Positions 12,376-21,435 of a stretch of DNA of 35,933 bases are shown one piece after another (position 1 is the first letter of the stretch; every line of letters begins with the position of its first letter). The position numbers and the translations under genes were made by a program. The notes under the pieces are model-generated. The model did no database searches. It was not told the DNA's origin and saw only the letters and a program-made list of their open reading frames with translations. Source of the DNA: Spirochaetia bacterium (GTDB lineage: Bacteria; Spirochaetota; Spirochaetia; CADAEX01); assembly GCA_024402405.1 (NCBI GenBank), contig JAKSTW010000014.1:1-35933 (forward strand). The letters run 5' to 3'.

Positions 12376-13026
12376 ATGAGTGAAATATTTAATTACAACG
12401 ATTTTATAAACAAAAGACATTCGGGCAGTTTTATCCCAATGGTAAAAAAAACAGGTTCAGTCATCATTGATGCAGCTCTGATCGCAGGTTCCGCAGCTGC
12501 AGCGGCAGGCAGATTCCTGGCAAAGGGGATCTCAGCTGTATGCAGATGTATCAGGGAACATATTCCTGGATTAAAAAACAGATGCAGAAAGATAGTGTCA
12601 GGCACCATAGCCGGAGGCAGGACAGCCGCCAGATATACCAGAGCCAGATATGCGGATTCCAGACTCAGAGAAATGATAAAAAGATACGGACTGCAGATAT
12701 CAGCAGTTCTGGCAGCAGCTGTGCTGACATTTTTTATCGGAATGCAGATACACACAGGAATGGCCAACAGAAAGATGCCGGCAATCCTTCATGAGGATAC
12801 CAGTATCAGCAGACTGCTGCTCTCCTCAATTTTCCCGGAGGAACAGACTCCTGAGGATATGAAGGATATAGAGACTGTCACTTATACGATCCAGAAAGGA
12901 GACACACTGTCAGGCATTGCCAGAAGAAATCATGTTGACACAGAGCTCATCATGCTGATGAATCAGATCATTGATGAGAAGAAGATCACACCGGGAACAA
13001 CGATCAAGATTCCGACCCAGATCTGA
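12376..13026 (+). CDS. LysM-domain membrane protein
   Basis: 216 residues. A basic, Ala-rich N-terminal region (1-105) is followed by one membrane helix at about 110-130 (ISAVLAAAVLTFFIGMQI), a short linker, and a C-terminal LysM domain at about 167-214 (YTIQKGDTLSGIARRN ... PGTTIKIP), which binds glycan chains of peptidoglycan. The LysM domain is on the periplasmic side if the basic N-terminus stays in the cytosol. There is no M23 peptidase or other catalytic domain, although LysM-M23 proteins are common relatives. It is divergent from the penicillin-binding protein gene, with 50 bases between them, and overlaps clpC tail to tail by 23 bases. A wall-attachment or morphogenesis role is inferred. 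Confidence 0.82.
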   Translation: MSEIFNYNDFINKRHSGSFIPMVKKTGSVIIDAALIAGSAAAAAGRFLAKGISAVCRCIREHIPGLKNRCRKIVSGTIAGGRTAARYTRARYADSRLREMIKRYGLQISAVLAAAVLTFFIGMQIHTGMANRKMPAILHEDTSISRLLLSSIFPEEQTPEDMKDIETVTYTIQKGDTLSGIARRNHVDTELIMLMNQIIDEKKITPGTTIKIPTQI

Positions 13027-15034
13027 TGCCATCTGCTGTACATTCAATGCACAGGTTTCCATTCCGGCATGATACCCGGACTGTCATCCCCTCTGTCAGC
13101 TCACCGCCTATGATTCTGAGAGAAACAGGATCTTCCAGTTCTTTCTGAATCAGACGGCGCAGCGGACGCGCACCATACCGATAATCCATCCCTTTCTGAA
13201 TGAAAAAATCCTCAGCTTTCGGCGTTATTTTCAGTGCCATGCCTTTCTCTGACAGTCTGTCGGACAGCTCCCTGACCATGAGTCTGAAAATTTTCCGCAT
13301 CTGTTCCTGAGAAAGCATATCAAATGTGACGATCTCATCCACACGGTTCAGAAATTCAGGTCTGAAAATATGTTTCAGCTCATTCATGGCTGCTGATTTT
13401 ATGGTATCTGCAGAAATACTGTTCTGCTCACGACGGAATCCAACCATTGTCCCTGCTGAAAATTCCCTGGTTCCTGCATTGGAGGTCATTATAATGATAG
13501 TATTGCGGAATGATACCTTCCTGCCCAGATTATCCTGTATCTCTCCCTCTTCCAGAATCTGCAGCAGCAGATTGAAAACATCAGGATGGGCCTTCTCTAT
13601 CTCATCAAAAAGGATGACGCAGTAAGGTTTTCTCCTGACTTTCTCGGTCAGTACTCCGCCCTCACCATATCCCACATATCCCGGAGGAGCTCCGACCAGT
13701 CTGGAAGCAGTGTGTTTTTCCATATAATCGGACATATCGATTCGCACAAGAGAGCCGGCATCACCGAAAAGGTACTCAGCCAGGATCTTAGCCAGATATG
13801 TCTTGCCCACTCCTGTAGGTCCCAGAAAGATAAAAGAACCCCATGGACGGCCAGGAGCACTTATGCCAGCCCTTGATCTGCGGATGGCAGCGGCTATGGA
13901 TCCTATGGCTTTATCCTGTCCCACCAGATATTTATGAATATAATCTTCTATCTTCAGCAGCTTTCCTGTCTCATTTTTTGAAAGTCTGGATACTGGTATG
14001 CCAGTCATTCCTGCCAGGGTACGGCAGATGTCCTCACCATCTATTATATTCTCTTCAATTTTCAGCTTATTGCGCCATAAAGTCTCTGCTGTCTCTTTTT
14101 TCTCACGCAGAACCTTTATCCTGTCTCTTTTCTCTGCAGCCTTCTCATAATTCTGCGCCGCCACCAGCTCCAGCTTCTCTCTGTTAAGAGCATCAATATC
14201 CCTCTCCAGCTTCAGTATGCGCTCCGGCTTACGGACATAGGCCACACGGCTGTCAGCACCAGCCTCATCCAGCAGGTCAATAGCCTTGTCTGGCTGCACT
14301 CTGCCTGAAATATACCTGGAAGAAAGGGCAATAGCTGTCTCCAGAGCCTCATCGCTGTAAGAAACATTATGAAACGTCTCATAATTGCCTCTTATTCCCT
14401 TCAGGATCTCCAGTGTCATATCCTTATCAGGCTCCTCCACCAAAATAGGCTGGAAACGCCTTTCAAGAGCACCGTCCTTCTCAATGAACTTCCGGTATTC
14501 AGCAGATGTGGTGGAACCTATACACTGCAGTTCTCCTCTGGCCAGAGCAGGCTTCAGCATATTGGCAGCATCCATGGCTCCGTCAGAACTGCCTGCACCG
14601 ACTATAGTATGAAGCTCGTCAATATAGAGAATAATATCGTCAGACTTAGTAACCTCACTGACAAGATGCTTTATCCTCTCCTCAAACTCACCTCTGTATT
14701 TTGTACCTGCCAGCATGGATGCCAGATCCAGCGTCATGACTTTCTTGCCGAGGAAGATCTCCGGGGCAGTACCATCAGCAATTCTGGCAGCAAAACCTTC
14801 CACCACAGCAGTCTTTCCCACACCAGGCTCACCGATGAGGACAGGATTGTTTTTCTTTCTTCTGGCCAGAATATGAATCAGCCTCTTTATCTCCCTGTCC
14901 CGTCCTATGACAGGATCAAGAAGTCCCTGTCTGGCCATCTCAACCAGGTTTTTGGAGAATCTGTCCAGCATAGGTGTGGCAGATTTTTCTTTTTTATCAG
15001 CAGTTGCCCCGGCGGGCTCCATCTCTTTAAACAT
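13004..15034 (-). CDS. clpC: AAA+ unfoldase ClpC lacking the N-terminal domain
   Basis: 676 residues. First ATPase ring domain: Walker [10 protein letters not shown], Walker B ILYIDELH. Middle domain with a UVR-like coiled coil ([16 protein letters not shown]). Second ATPase: [20 protein letters not shown]. The VGF tripeptide in TMVGFRRE is the ClpP-docking loop, so it should feed substrates to ClpP (not in this window). Typical ClpC has about 810 residues; the missing part is the whole Clp-N repeat domain of about 150 residues. The protein starts in the linker just before [15 protein letters not shown]. Upstream sequence is the mcsB gene in another frame, and AAGGA sits just before the ATG, so the short form is genuine. 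It overlaps mcsB by eight bases. Confidence 0.93.
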
Positions 15035-16070
15035 TCTTTTCCTTAAGTCCCAATTTATTTCTTATATATTCAGCCCTGAGTCTGTCAACATCCAGTGTTT
15101 TTTTCTCCCAGACAGTGTCAGCCAGCAGATGATATTTCTGCATCTTTATAAAAAGGCGGTTTATCTCAAACACATCCATCTTTATGATACCAAGATTCAC
15201 ACCGAATTTCATATCAGACAGGATCTGAAGTGCTTCCCAGACATTGAGACGCCGACAGTATCTCAGGATGCCATAGGAGCGCATGACAATATCAACAGCA
15301 TCCAGCCGCTTCCGTTCCAGCACTCTCTGTCTGGCCTCACGCTCTTTGGCAGCAATACCGGAAAAAGTGTCTGTCAGCCGGTGTATCATCTCATCAGGAT
15401 CTTGGTCAGCAGCCAGCCTGTTCTCAATCAGGAACATATTGCCTCTTGGGAGTCCGGTAGGCTTATCCATATATCCTCTTATGCTGATACCGGAAGAAGT
15501 GGCCGATGTGAAAAGATAACTCAGTTTGCCATCTAGAGCCAGGCCAGGAAGGAACATGGTAGCCACAGCATGAACACCGGTACCGCAATAATCCAGAGAA
15601 GCAGTCTTATACCCCAGTTTTTTATCCCGCTGATAGTCAAACACAGATGCCAGCTTCCTGTCGACAGCCTTCGACTCCTCATAGGAATGGAGACAGTCCA
15701 GCCCCGCCCTGAAACATTTTATCTTTATATGATCTTCCTCGTTGAACACCACATAAGGTCTTTTCCACAGTTCATAAGCCAGATAACGTCCAGTTCCGGC
15801 TACAGCACTGCCTGTGATATAATTCTTTTCAGCCAGAAGCTGCCTCTCATGGAAAGATATATCATCCAGTCCGCAGAATGAAAACTCAGGCAGTTTACCC
15901 ATCTGCTTTGTCTGAAAAAGATTCAGAGCCATGACTTCCTTGCCTGTGAGACGCTGGAAATATTTCCATCCCGCAATATTGCGTGACATGCGTATGCTGG
16001 AACACAGCACCACATCTCCATCAGGCGGCACACATTCTGAGTTCTCAAACCAGTCTGTCATCAGATTCAT
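15027..16070 (-). CDS. mcsB: McsB-like protein arginine kinase homologue, probably catalytically altered
   Basis: 347 residues with the phosphagen-kinase fold. Recognisable blocks: DVVLCSSIRMSRN, NEEDHIKI, LGYKTASLDYCGTG, FLPGLALDG, RSYGILRYCRR and FGVNLGIIK. McsB phosphorylates arginines as degradation tags for ClpCP. Against Bacillus McsB (aligned from memory), signature Cys167 is Ser (family CPTN is SLDY), Arg29 is Ser, His92 is Asn, Arg125 is Lys, Arg176 is His and Glu212 is Asp/Lys, while Glu121, Arg31 and Arg207 remain. The allosteric phosphoarginine motif RDxxRA reads VDRLRA. The fold is therefore kept but the kinase site is largely lost. It overlaps mcsA by four bases (ATGA) and clpC by eight. 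Confidence 0.9.
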   Translation of the reverse strand: MNLMTDWFENSECVPPDGDVVLCSSIRMSRNIAGWKYFQRLTGKEVMALNLFQTKQMGKLPEFSFCGLDDISFHERQLLAEKNYITGSAVAGTGRYLAYELWKRPYVVFNEEDHIKIKCFRAGLDCLHSYEESKAVDRKLASVFDYQRDKKLGYKTASLDYCGTGVHAVATMFLPGLALDGKLSYLFTSATSSGISIRGYMDKPTGLPRGNMFLIENRLAADQDPDEMIHRLTDTFSGIAAKEREARQRVLERKRLDAVDIVMRSYGILRYCRRLNVWEALQILSDMKFGVNLGIIKMDVFEINRLFIKMQKYHLLADTVWEKKTLDVDRLRAEYIRNKLGLKEKNV

Positions 16071-16561
16071 TTCGAAATAGCCCTGATCTTATCCCGGAGC
16101 ACAGCAGCATTCTCGTAATCTTCAACTGCAACCGCCTCCTGCATCTGTTTCTCCAGCATATTCCTGTAGGCATCCTCTGACATAGGTTCCCTCATGGGTG
16201 GCTCCTTCTTATCAGATACAGAGTACAGAGCCTTGTCCAAAGTACCTGCAATATATTTCTCTATATGCTCTCTGAACATATCATAACAATGGGAACATCC
16301 CACTGTACCGCTTTTCTTCACTTCTGCAAGAGTTGTGCCACATTTGTCGCACACAACATTCAGATCCTTTCTGGTGATCCCCTGGCTGAACATACTCAGC
16401 TTCTCAAGGATCTTAGCCACATCAGCATCGCCGCCAGGTCCCATCTCCAGGCCATTCTCGTGGGCACATTTCTCGCACAGATTCAGGCTGGTCTCACCAT
16501 TCTCCTGTTTCTGATGAAGATGTATAACAGCATTATTCTCGCCACAAATATCACAAATCAA
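16067..16561 (-). CDS. mcsA: McsA, zinc-finger UVR protein, activator of McsB/ClpC
   Basis: 164 residues. Four CxxC pairs lie in the N-terminal half (CDIC, CEKC, CDKC, CSHC), the normal McsA zinc pattern. The C-terminal UVR motif is AVAVEDYENAAVLRDKIRAI, which in relatives contacts the ClpC middle domain. McsA activates McsB and bridges it to ClpC. All metal ligands appear intact, in contrast to the eroded McsB active site. The start is TTG at 16561, with AGAGG nine bases upstream. It is the first gene of mcsA-mcsB-clpC; no ctsR gene and no CtsR operator are visible. Confidence 0.92.
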   Translation of the reverse strand: MICDICGENNAVIHLHQKQENGETSLNLCEKCAHENGLEMGPGGDADVAKILEKLSMFSQGITRKDLNVVCDKCGTTLAEVKKSGTVGCSHCYDMFREHIEKYIAGTLDKALYSVSDKKEPPMREPMSEDAYRNMLEKQMQEAVAVEDYENAAVLRDKIRAISK

Positions 16562-17633: not shown

Positions 17634-18626
17634 TCAGAGCTCTGAAACCAAAGTCATGATTTCAGGAATATATTCAGCAAAAATATCTTTCTCGCCACCG
17701 GCTGCAATGACAGACAAAATTTTACCATTCACACGGAAAGCAGTCATATATGTATATGCCATATCATATCCAGACACACTCCATTTAAAGCATGACACCT
17801 TTCCGCCGGCAGCATCTATCTCCTGGAAATCCTCCAGGCTGTAGCCAAGCCCAAGGAAATTTTTCTCCAGAATATTTTTCCAGAATTCCGCATCTTTCTC
17901 AGGATAATTCTTAACTTTTTTCTTTATGAATCTGCATCCGTCAGGACTGACACTGGTATAAAAGTTTCCGGATCTTGCCTCCAGAGCAAAGCCAGATGGG
18001 ATAATTTCAATATGCTTAGAAAATTCAGGTCTGGTCTCAGATGCCCTCCAGTTCAGGAATTTATCGAAAGTCATATCATCTATCCAGTCAAATACGATTC
18101 CTCTGTCCCCACCAGACACAACAGCGGATGTCTCAAGAGCCACAGAGAACAATGCCATCCGGCCTTCTTCCTGAAGCATATTTATCTGTCCCTGAAGGGC
18201 CTCAATCTCACGCACCAGTGCAAGCATGGCTTTTTCCACCTCCAGAGCAGATGCATAATCTGCATTCCGGAGAATACCTGAATAGCGGTCCAGCAGCTTT
18301 TTCTTCTCAGCCAGATTATTCTGCAGTTCCATAAGCCTGGAAGAAGTGTCAGAAGTGCTGATATTGGAATAAAGCACTTTGGAACTGTGCTTCTCCACAA
18401 GATCACGGAATGAAGCGACCTGATCCGCAGGAATTCTGAGATTCATAACAGAAGCATTATAATAAACCACATATCCGCCACATTTTTCACACTGTTCAGC
18501 AAGATATCCAGTGCTTCTGCCGGCATCATATACTTTTATGGACATATCCACTCTGACTGATTCAGAGGCAAATGAGACGGCAATACATGACAAAAGCAGA
18601 ATAACTGATAAAACTATTTTTTTCAT
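17634..18626 (-). CDS. Exported DUF4349-family protein with extra C-terminal domain
   Basis: 330 residues with a cleavable signal peptide (IVLSVILLLSCIAVSFASES). Residues 24-180 resemble DUF4349: a strand-rich part (VRVDMSIKVYDAGRSTGYLAEQ, LRIPADQVASFRDLVEKH) and a long coiled coil (SRLMELQNNLAEKKKLLDRY to EALQGQINMLQEEGR). Usual DUF4349 proteins end in a membrane helix; here the last 130 residues form a soluble domain with FWKNILEKNF. The same kind of tail is found in the next gene upstream, so the two are tandem paralogues. Function is unknown; an envelope role is inferred from export. It overlaps the upstream gene by four bases. Confidence 0.78.
   Translation of the reverse strand: MKKIVLSVILLLSCIAVSFASESVRVDMSIKVYDAGRSTGYLAEQCEKCGGYVVYYNASVMNLRIPADQVASFRDLVEKHSSKVLYSNISTSDTSSRLMELQNNLAEKKKLLDRYSGILRNADYASALEVEKAMLALVREIEALQGQINMLQEEGRMALFSVALETSAVVSGGDRGIVFDWIDDMTFDKFLNWRASETRPEFSKHIEIIPSGFALEARSGNFYTSVSPDGCRFIKKKVKNYPEKDAEFWKNILEKNFLGLGYSLEDFQEIDAAGGKVSCFKWSVSGYDMAYTYMTAFRVNGKILSVIAAGGEKDIFAEYIPEIMTLVSEL
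18100..18110 (+). repeat. Dispersed 11-mer CCTCTGTCCCC, inside first DUF4349 gene
   Basis: Perfect copy; on the coding strand it encodes GGDRGI in the segment after the coiled coil. Confidence 0.9.
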
Positions 18627-19729
18627 CTGATCCTGAATCCCTCCAGTGTGGCGATCACAGCATCATGATCCTGTTGGAAGCTGACATCATCAGGGAAATA
18701 AGCCTCCACAACATAGAGAAGATTTCCCCGGTTAACCTCTGTCCCCACAAAATATCTCATGCTGCCGGATGTCACAAGAATCCCACGCAAAGTACCTGCC
18801 TCCAGAGTACAGCAATCCTCATACATGGCTGAGAAATGATATTCCAGAGCTCTCTGCCAGAAAAGGCTGTCCCCTTTAGGAAAATTTCTTACAGATCCGA
18901 CACGCAGCTGAGTACCGCATGAGGATTCCGCATAAAACGAGCGCATTCTGTCCAAGACGCCGAAAGTTTCCGGAGCTTTGAGCAGGATACGGCCATAAAG
19001 CCTGTCAGCAGTTATCTCAGCCGGAACCAGTCTCTCTATCCACTCAAACCTGTAAGGCTCAGCAGATACTGATGATATGCTGATAAAATAAATTGTTATA
19101 TCTGCATATGCAGCCTCTCTCTCCATACGGACCATAAGGGCTGATACAGCTTCGATCTCATCCAGGATCTTATCCAGCTCCTTGAGGATCTTCACTTTAT
19201 CACTGGCAGAGGATGCATTATCAAACAGCTTCTCAAGTCGCGCTTTAGTCTCATTCAGCACCCGGAGTCTGGCTTTTGAGTCATAATACGAATCTGTGAT
19301 ATCCTGGCCTGAAATGCTCTCTGACACCACATGCCCCAGGACAAGCAGTCTGTCCAGTGTCTCACGGAAAAGAGCCTGGGGAACTGACACAGAGATGCTG
19401 CACACATCAGAATGGAGCACCTGACCTCCAGTCTCTCTGACAATAGCTGCTGCAGAATCCACCGCCATCTTGCAGTCACGGACCTCAAGAGTACAGTCAG
19501 CACTGTTATGTAATTTTCTGTCCTGCACAGCACCGTTTACTGCCATCTCACTGACAGGAGCAGCTTTAGCCATCATGACAGTTCCTGTGGGACACGGCAT
19601 CTCAGCACAATCGGCACAGACAACGGCCTCTTCCTGCGAAGATGGAAGCTTTCCAGAACATCCAATACACAGTGAAACAGAAAAAATAAATATTAAGAAT
19701 TTAGAGATCGCTTCCTGACACTGCCACAA
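18623..19729 (-). CDS. DUF4349-family lipoprotein with extra C-terminal domain
   Basis: 368 residues. The N-terminus is a lipoprotein signal (LIFIFSVSLCIGC), followed by a Cys-rich stretch (CADCAEMPCP). The DUF4349-like core has LEVRDCKMAVDSAAAIVRE, SVPQALFRETLDRLLVLG and a coiled coil (KARLRVLNETKARLEKLF to EIEAVSALMVRMEREA). The tail (VRNFPKGDSLFWQRALEYHF) parallels that of the downstream gene (KNYPEKDAEFWKNILEKNF). The start is TTG at 19729 with AAGGA eight bases upstream; this overlaps the ACT gene by 29 bases. The two DUF4349 proteins and ApbE look like one exported set, but no known function connects them. Confidence 0.78.
   Translation of the reverse strand: MWQCQEAISKFLIFIFSVSLCIGCSGKLPSSQEEAVVCADCAEMPCPTGTVMMAKAAPVSEMAVNGAVQDRKLHNSADCTLEVRDCKMAVDSAAAIVRETGGQVLHSDVCSISVSVPQALFRETLDRLLVLGHVVSESISGQDITDSYYDSKARLRVLNETKARLEKLFDNASSASDKVKILKELDKILDEIEAVSALMVRMEREAAYADITIYFISISSVSAEPYRFEWIERLVPAEITADRLYGRILLKAPETFGVLDRMRSFYAESSCGTQLRVGSVRNFPKGDSLFWQRALEYHFSAMYEDCCTLEAGTLRGILVTSGSMRYFVGTEVNRGNLLYVVEAYFPDDVSFQQDHDAVIATLEGFRIR
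18736..18746 (+). repeat. Dispersed 11-mer CCTCTGTCCCC, inside second DUF4349 gene
   Basis: Perfect copy, extended to ACCTCTGTCCCCAC as at the RAYT right end; on the coding strand it encodes VGTEVN. Confidence 0.9.
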
Positions 19730-20123
19730 GAGAATTTTCCTTCACGATCTCAAGACCACGGTTGATGTCATCCACTTTGAAAATGACCACTGCCTTATCG
19801 TTGTTCCGCTTCATGGAAACATAAAGATATTCAATATTCACATTGTTGGTCCGAAACAGTTCCATGATCTTATAAAGTCCGCCAGGCTGGTCTGCCACCT
19901 CGATACCAAGAACCTTTGTATTTTTCACAATAAAATGATTCTTTTCCAGAACCTCGGTAGCCTTCACATTATCTTCAGCCACGATCCGGACTATCCCGAA
20001 ATCAGCAGTATCTGCAATAGTAAGAGCACGAAGATTCACTCCTGATTCAAAAAGGATCTTAGTGAGTTCTGCCAATCTTCCGGATTTATTTTCCAAAAAA
20101 ACTGAAATCTGATTAATAGTCAT
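19701..20123 (-). CDS. Tandem ACT-domain protein
   Basis: 140 residues made of two ACT domains: about 1-65 (ISVFLENKSGRLAELTKIL, RIVAEDNVKATEVLEK) and 70-138 (VLGIEVADQPGGLYKIMEL, NNDKAVVIFKVDDI). ACT domains bind amino acids or similar small molecules. Stand-alone tandem ACT proteins are commonly encoded next to PaaK-type CoA ligases, as here (10 bases after paaK), and probably sense an amino acid or aryl acid to regulate it. There is no catalytic domain. A strong AGGAGG precedes the ATG. Confidence 0.88.
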   Translation of the reverse strand: MTINQISVFLENKSGRLAELTKILFESGVNLRALTIADTADFGIVRIVAEDNVKATEVLEKNHFIVKNTKVLGIEVADQPGGLYKIMELFRTNNVNIEYLYVSMKRNNDKAVVIFKVDDINRGLEIVKENSLVAVSGSDL

Positions 20124-20133
20124 CTGTCCCTCC

Positions 20134-21435
20134 TTAAATCACTCTTTTATCAATAACTCTTTTTGCCTTGCCCTCAGACCGGCTGATGGAACGAGGCTCC
20201 ACAAGCTTTATCTTGGCATAAATTCCTATCTTGGATTTTACAGAATTGAAGATATAATTCTTCAGGGTCTCCAGCTTTCTGGTCTCATCTGAGAAAATAT
20301 CCTCATCCACCTCCACCTGGATCTCCATATCATCAAGATGATTCTCACCTCTGGTAAGTATGATCTGATAGTTAGGAGTGAGTCCCTTTATCTGCATAAG
20401 AAGCTGCTCGATCTGGGCAGGGAAAACATTGACACCCTTGATGATGAGCATATCGTCAACACGGCCGAAAAGGCGGTGCATTTTAACAGTGGTTCTGCCG
20501 CATGAGCATTTCTCCCTGTACAGATAGGTGATATCCCGGGTTCTGTAACGGATCAGCGGAGTACCTTCCTTAGTGAGAGTCGTGAAAACCAGCTCTCCCC
20601 TCTCGCCATAAGGAAGCACCTCGCCAGTCTCTGAATTTATTATCTCAGGATAGAAGAAATCCTCGTTTATATGGAGACCGCTCTGACACTCACACTCGCT
20701 GGCTACACCAGGTCCTGTGATCTCTGTAAGTCCATAGATATCGTATGCTTTTATTTTCAGCTTCTCCTCGATCTCGCGCCTCATATTGTCACTCCATGGC
20801 TCAGCCCCAAGGCAGCCGATACGGAGCTTAAGTGAATCTCTGTCGACATTCATCTTTTTAAGAACTTCTGCTATGTAGAGAGCATATGAAGGTGTGCATG
20901 TAAGGACGGAGGAGCCGAAATCCCGCATGACATTTATCTGTCTCTCGGTATTTCCTGAAGAGATAGGAATGACAGTCATTCCCAGTTTGTTTCCGCCATA
21001 ATGGGCACCGACACCGCCAGTAAACAGTCCATATCCATAGGCATTCTGCAGCACATCTGCTGATGTGGCTCCTGCGGCACAGTAAGTTCTGGCCATACAT
21101 TCAGACCAGGTATCCAGATCTTTTCTGGTGTATGCATCTACTACCGGAATGCCTGTGGTACCAGATGAACAGTGGATCTCAACTATTTCTTCCTTGGGAA
21201 CTGCAGCCAGTCCCAGAGGATAAGTATCCCGGAGATCGCTTTTTGTTGTAAAAGGGAAATATTTTAGATCAGAAAGGGTCTTTAAATCTTCAGGCTTAAC
21301 ACCTGCCTTATCGAATTTTTCTTTATAAAAAGGAACTTTGGAATAAACCTTTTTCAACAGATTCTTGAGGTTCTTAAGCTGCTGCGCCTCTCTTGTATGC
21401 TGATCGGCCTGCTCAGCCTGTGGATTGTAAATCAA
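20134..21435 (-). CDS. paaK: Phenylacetate-CoA ligase family protein (PaaK-like)
   Basis: 433-residue AMP-forming acyl-CoA ligase. Motifs: [12 protein letters not shown] (phosphate loop), [10 protein letters not shown] (adenine pocket), RYRTRDITY and [16 protein letters not shown] (hinge), and the C-terminal lysine region [10 protein letters not shown]. Two Cys clusters (CECQ, CSCG) resemble the zinc-binding region of anaerobic PaaK enzymes. It activates phenylacetate or a related aryl acid to its CoA thioester. In anaerobes this ligase with an ACT partner often goes with indolepyruvate oxidoreductase in aromatic amino-acid metabolism; that enzyme is not in the window. The start is TTG at 21435 with AGGAG six to eight bases upstream. 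Confidence 0.9.

Follow-up and report, generated by a model that had tools for sequence, protein, structure and literature searches.

In the usual account, the protein arginine kinase McsB is the bacterial equivalent of an enzyme that tags proteins for degradation, and its adaptor role is tied to its kinase activity. In Bacillus subtilis McsB, the substitutions R29K, R31K, R34K, R125K, R176K, R207K and R337K each abolish phosphorylation, and the C167S mutant is the standard kinase-inactive form (PMC7235348). The double substitution R337A/D338A destabilises McsB oligomers (PMC8370763). In Staphylococcus aureus, the second zinc finger of McsA binds the McsB loop located just before the catalytic cysteine (PMC12467219). 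The N-terminal Clp_N domain of ClpC contains two phosphoarginine pockets, binds McsA and McsB, and stabilises the ClpC resting state; an engineered S. aureus ClpC lacking this domain assembles into planar hexamers that bind ClpP, but it has no resting state and is proteolytically inactive unless the M-domain contacts are broken (PMC12583610).

Here we describe an mcsA-mcsB-clpC locus in which both the McsB active site and the N-terminal domain of ClpC deviate from these systems. The locus lies in a window of 35,933 nucleotides (contig JAKSTW010000014.1, assembly GCA_024402405.1), the whole stretch of DNA analysed, from a rumen-type spirochaete of the class Spirochaetia. The named congeneric genomes are likewise Spirochaetia metagenome-assembled genomes, from sheep rumen and goat reticulum.

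A full-length McsB homologue within an mcsA-mcsB-clpC locus

The mcsB homologue is an open reading frame of 347 amino acids at positions 15027-16070 on the minus strand, with an ATG start and no internal stops. It is preceded by mcsA (16067-16561, minus strand), whose 164-residue product matches the UVR family (E 8.9e-10), NF053706 (E 1.3e-21) and the McsA chain 8wtb_B (E 7.5e-14), and is followed by clpC (13004-15034, minus strand), encoding 676 amino acids. The three genes are contiguous on one strand, an arrangement also found in the congeners. The start of mcsB overlaps mcsA by 4 bases and its end overlaps clpC by 8 bases; overlapping genes are also seen in the intact operon of the congeners. 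The first-pass annotation, made from the window sequence, had described the gene as intact and embedded in this operon, and both points hold. Scans for an operon promoter and terminator gave background levels only.

A gene for a LysM-domain protein (12376-13026, plus strand) is convergent with clpC, and the coding ends of the two overlap by 23 bases. Immediately upstream of an ApbE flavin transferase gene and of mcsA lie two adjacent, overlapping genes for DUF4349 proteins (17634-18626 and 18623-19729, minus strand). The minus-strand genes at 19701-20123 and 20134-21435 comprise a PaaK-type phenylacetate-CoA ligase gene followed by a paired ACT-domain protein gene.

The McsB homologue matched PF00217, the ATP:guanido phosphotransferase catalytic domain, with an E-value of 1.4e-22 (80.5 bits against a cut-off of 22.4), but fell short of the equivalog cut-offs of the NCBIfam models NF002194 and NF053707 (193 versus 385 bits and 168 versus 500 bits, respectively). 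A phmmer search against PDB sequences returned McsB 6fh1 (E 3.9e-37). Structure prediction with AlphaFold (AF2) gave a confident McsB fold (pLDDT 89.5, pTM 0.87), with the phosphotransferase domain at approximately residues 1-249 and the dimerisation domain at approximately residues 250-347. The top Foldseek matches of this model in the PDB were McsB 6tv6 and 6fh1, which align along its entire length with the dimerisation domain included (TM approximately 0.85; E 6e-27 to 6tv6). The protein thus resembles the McsBs of Bacillus, Geobacillus and Staphylococcus (6fh1-6fh3, 6tv6, 8gqd, 8wtb) in its orthologous full-length fold and its mcsA-mcsB-clpC operon, while scoring far under the equivalog cut-offs. 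As judged from the sequence matches and the model, it is a genuine homologue of McsB whose active site has eroded, and neither a misaligned protein nor a broken gene. It is encoded by the sole PF00217 gene in the genome (1.52 Mb, 96% complete), and no second, intact McsB was found elsewhere in that assembly.

Multiple catalytic residues are substituted in the window McsB

Residues were mapped by aligning the protein with Geobacillus McsB 6fh1 as the anchor; codon positions are given in parentheses and all are on the minus strand. The position of the catalytic Cys167 is occupied by Ser158 (15597-15599). Among the ATP-site arginines, Arg29 is replaced by Ser25 (15996-15998), Arg125 by Lys116 (15723-15725), and Arg176 by His167 (15570-15572), a His that the seven genomes of the genus share. 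The substitutions of the cysteine and of the three arginines had been read from the sequence in the first-pass annotation and were confirmed by the anchored alignment. Substrate-site Glu212, which that annotation had given as Asp or Lys, is indeed lost; the aligned residue is Lys203 (15462-15464), and the Asp is only its neighbour. The phosphoarginine receptor motif RDxxRA reads VDRLRA, as had been proposed, with Arg337 replaced by Val328 (15087-15089) and with D338 (D329) and R341 (the Arg of xDxxRA) retained. The change of His92 to Asn83 (15822-15824) is also real. Because His92 varies in active families and is His in only 65 of 75 outgroup McsBs, this change was dropped as evidence of inactivation.

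Other features common to the Bacillus, Geobacillus and Staphylococcus enzymes remain, in agreement with the earlier reading that the fold, Glu121, Arg31 and Arg207 are kept. These are the GTG loop, R31 (R27), R34 (R30), R207 (R198), and Glu121, which is Glu112 here (15735-15737), is Glu or Asp within the genus, and is lost in most of the class. Three of the six essential arginines R29, R31, R34, R125, R176 and R207 are therefore kept (R31, R34 and R207). The six congeners contain Y, N, A, H, T and V at R29, H92, C167, R176, E212 and R337, respectively, the R337 position being uncovered in one fragmentary copy. Contamination, a frameshift or an assembly error was ruled out as the source of the pattern, since the losses of C167, R29, R176, E212 and R337, as well as the truncation of ClpC described below, are common to the six congeners.

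Five of the eight positions at which substitution inactivates B. subtilis McsB are altered together in the window protein (C167, R29, R125, R176 and R337). All nine catalytic and substrate residues are kept in 75 of 75 McsBs from other phyla and in none of the 51 from Spirochaetia; the pattern by which the outgroups were fetched fixes only the residues of the NExDH[IL][RK] motif, leaving C167, R29, R176, R207 and E212 free to vary. Because five inactivating positions have changed at once and the outgroups are invariant, we infer from the sequence that arginine phosphorylation by the window McsB has very probably been lost. Many Spirochaetota outside the class Spirochaetia have Lys at R207 yet retain C167, and the lethality of Arg-to-Lys changes in B. 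subtilis may not hold in a diverged background.

Loss of the catalytic cysteine extends throughout the class

The first-pass annotation had treated the erosion as a feature of one gene, which the comparison with relatives did not bear out. Cys167 is kept in 0 of 51 Spirochaetia McsBs. It is present in 75 of 75 McsBs sampled from other phyla and, among other spirochaete classes, in 21 of 41, the latter being a sample biased towards strong matches to Geobacillus McsB. Both Cys167 and the receptor arginine R337 are missing from all Spirochaetia McsBs. Position 167 within the class is E, D, N, R, K, S, A, Y, L, G, V or H, with no new consensus. Most Spirochaetia McsBs outside the window's family share with the window protein the loss of Cys167 and R337 but keep more ATP-site arginines: four or five of the six essential arginines are retained in most of these, whereas members of the window's family retain one to three.

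On a McsB tree built by a quick method with the site columns masked, which contains several long branches, at least six changes of the C167 state are needed. Several families outside Spirochaetia (f45, f40, f50, f60 and f65, for example, among copies L185-L196) have also lost Cys167, and more than one loss within the phylum is probable. In Spirochaetota copies that keep Cys167 (L156, L160, L162, L167), R337 is often replaced by Cys, Gly or Ser, and R207 by Lys. In the sister genus (four copies), the ATP-site arginines lost are R31, R125 and R176, while Glu212 and a full-length ClpC are kept; the window's genus has lost R29 and R176. The sister-genus pattern suggests independent decay following a common loss of Cys167. 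The likely course, as reconstructed from these alignments, is that the catalytic cysteine and R337 were lost early and that the nucleotide-site arginines were then lost separately.

A test of whether Spirochaetia conserve the former catalytic sites less well than the remaining sites that are invariant in the outgroups gave only p 0.06, because R34, and in part R29 and R31, remain conserved. The sites that became free in the class are the substrate sites E121, C167 and E212.

These distributions bear on the possibility that the kinase is still active with a remodelled site, other residues having replaced Cys167 and the lost arginines, perhaps to act on another guanidino or protein substrate. 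Candidate replacements are the Cys directly before GTG, present in the window protein and its congeners, and the acidic residue (Asp or Glu) that most of the class has at position 167. Many Spirochaetia McsBs combine such an acidic residue with R29, R31, R34 and R125, so that nucleotide binding is possible in principle, and the window protein itself retains E121, R31, R34 and R207. The genus, however, has lost the nucleotide site (R29, R176) along with the substrate site (C167, E212), and its ClpC is missing the phosphoarginine reader. The class, moreover, has no alternative fixed catalytic set, with position 167 varied and position 121 near-random. We consider an active, remodelled kinase quite unlikely.

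McsB is maintained by purifying selection

For congener pairs with dS of 0.5-1.3, dN/dS was mostly 0.03-0.12 for mcsB, 0.04-0.07 for clpC, and 0.04-0.10 for mcsA. Purifying selection on mcsB is about as strong as on clpC. Together with the five inactivating changes, these values give good support to the earlier proposal of a pseudokinase that selection maintains for a function other than arginine phosphorylation.

The low rates also address the possibility that mcsB is a relict on its way out, its frame kept only through translational coupling to clpC by overlapping stop and start codons. The overlaps with mcsA and clpC would fit such coupling, as would the AGGAGG that, in six congeners, lies within the 3' end of mcsB and directly precedes the probable TTG start of clpC; McsB is also wholly absent from many Spirochaetia genomes. 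Coupling alone cannot explain the low dN/dS, because it requires only an open frame and not a conserved protein. A relict gene is further opposed by the confident full-length fold predicted by AF2 and by the retention of McsB through a class-wide radiation, and we regard it as very improbable.

Of 59 relatives with ClpC, 51 also have McsB; of 20 lacking ClpC, none does (Fisher p 1.2e-12, with shared descent ignored). Some co-occurrence is to be expected, given operon linkage and the shared descent of the genomes. McsA is intact in the window and the genus, with both zinc-finger cysteine sets (four CxxC) and the C-terminal UVR motif. In McsB, the Gly-Tyr pair that ends the McsA-binding loop is among the most conserved spots of the Spirochaetia proteins, which fits the view that selection acts on the complex with McsA.

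ClpC lacks its N-terminal domain throughout the genus

ClpC is without the N-terminal Clp_N double domain in seven of seven genomes of the genus, as determined by Pfam scan for the window ClpC and two congeners and by alignment and length for the other four. The genus ClpC starts just before D1, whereas approximately 190 residues precede the same junction in the outgroups and in all other Spirochaetia, the sister genus included; in those full-length ClpCs that were scanned, this stretch contains two Clp_N repeats. Only MFK is left before the linker in the window ClpC. The remainder of the protein resembles both the Firmicutes ClpC and the engineered S. aureus form without the N-domain (PMC12583610), with D1, the UVR-containing M-domain, D2, the Walker motifs and the ClpP-binding loop (VGF) all kept. 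The aromatic residue of the M-domain at the position of S. aureus F436 is also present (QNYEKAA). Relative to Firmicutes ClpC, the window protein has thus lost the whole N-domain naturally. The genome encodes two ClpPs. No second ClpC with an N-domain was found in it, and its only Clp_N domain is in ClpB.

Other components of the phosphoarginine circuit were sought in the same genomes. No low-molecular-weight phosphatase of the YwlE type was found in the window's genome. Four of the seven genus genomes have a low-molecular-weight phosphatase with the loop CHGNICRS. In YwlE arginine phosphatases this loop has Thr where the congeners' enzymes have Ile, and we take the loop of the congeners' enzymes to be of the tyrosine-phosphatase type. 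A missing YwlE is weakened as genus-wide evidence by the presence of these four enzymes, albeit with a tyrosine-type loop. CtsR was not found in 79 relatives; in searches for these families the B. subtilis control genome gave no match to PF00217, Clp_N or CtsR although the species has them, and its control sequence may be missing that operon, while other controls or relatives matched. The role of antirepressor of CtsR, which is kinase-independent in B. subtilis, was rejected since CtsR is absent from the 79 relatives. MecA was not found in the window's genome. With neither CtsR in the relatives nor MecA in this genome, McsA-McsB is the only ClpC adaptor of known type that was found.

A search of the open-access literature, which leaves most subscription journals outside its coverage, returned no description of a McsB pseudokinase or study of a spirochaete McsB. 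The two striking features, absence of the catalytic cysteine across the class and the parallel loss of the reader domain of ClpC in one genus, were not found described there.

Proposed role of the McsA-McsB complex

Our preferred reading, to which we assign a probability of about 0.6, is that McsB is a class-wide pseudokinase kept as a phosphorylation-independent, McsA-bound partner of ClpC, and that it acts through the M-domain in the window's genus. The McsB-fold protein would not phosphorylate arginine and, bound to McsA, would still partner the ClpC-ClpP protease in a non-catalytic way. Since the genus ClpC has no N-domain, we infer that McsA-McsB acts on the coiled-coil M-domain, the part of ClpC that would remain above the ring. 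There the complex may keep the M-domains apart, as MecA does, and present substrates, and it would partly stand in for the missing ClpC N-domain.

An adaptor role for ClpC had been suggested in the first-pass annotation. That suggestion remains plausible, but the neighbouring ClpC, which the annotation had not seen to be truncated, makes the known contact unusable: the N-domain that docks McsA/McsB and reads phosphoarginine has been lost. That the described McsA/McsB contact is made with this absent domain (PMC12583610) counts against the adaptor reading, as does the view expressed in a review that the adaptor role of McsB towards ClpCP needs kinase activity (PMC5506225). A precedent for kinase-independent action comes from B. 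subtilis, where C167S McsB keeps part of its effect on MgsR degradation, which the authors read as the activity of a kinase-independent adaptor (PMC7235348); the MgsR precedent is a ClpX case and not a ClpC case, which also weighs against the adaptor reading. The window protein resembles this laboratory mutant in having the catalytic cysteine substituted in the same way, here naturally, but it has at least four additional inactivating changes, and the ClpC at its side has no N-domain.

The ClpX precedent also bears on the alternative that McsB is non-catalytic but has a function unrelated to ClpC, for example as a ClpX adaptor or as a nucleotide or metabolite sensor together with McsA. The ClpX adaptor role proposed for B. 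subtilis McsB (PMC7235348) and the absence of the ClpC N-domain, the known McsB contact, are in its favour. Against this, McsB never occurs without ClpC in 79 genomes, and mcsA, mcsB and clpC are contiguous in the congeners. We judge a function unrelated to ClpC to be unlikely.

Implications

Stated in its broadest form, the proposal would be that Spirochaetia gave up arginine phosphorylation by McsB and kept McsA-McsB as a phosphorylation-independent regulator of ClpC, and that in one gut genus the complex replaces the ClpC N-domain in trans. We put this full account forward tentatively, as a possibility that is somewhat more apt to fail than to hold in all its parts. The annotation "protein arginine kinase" in spirochaetes is no evidence of arginine phosphorylation. 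If the proposal is true, a natural lineage would have separated the adaptor role of McsB from its kinase role, and the contact between McsA-McsB and ClpC would be made testable.
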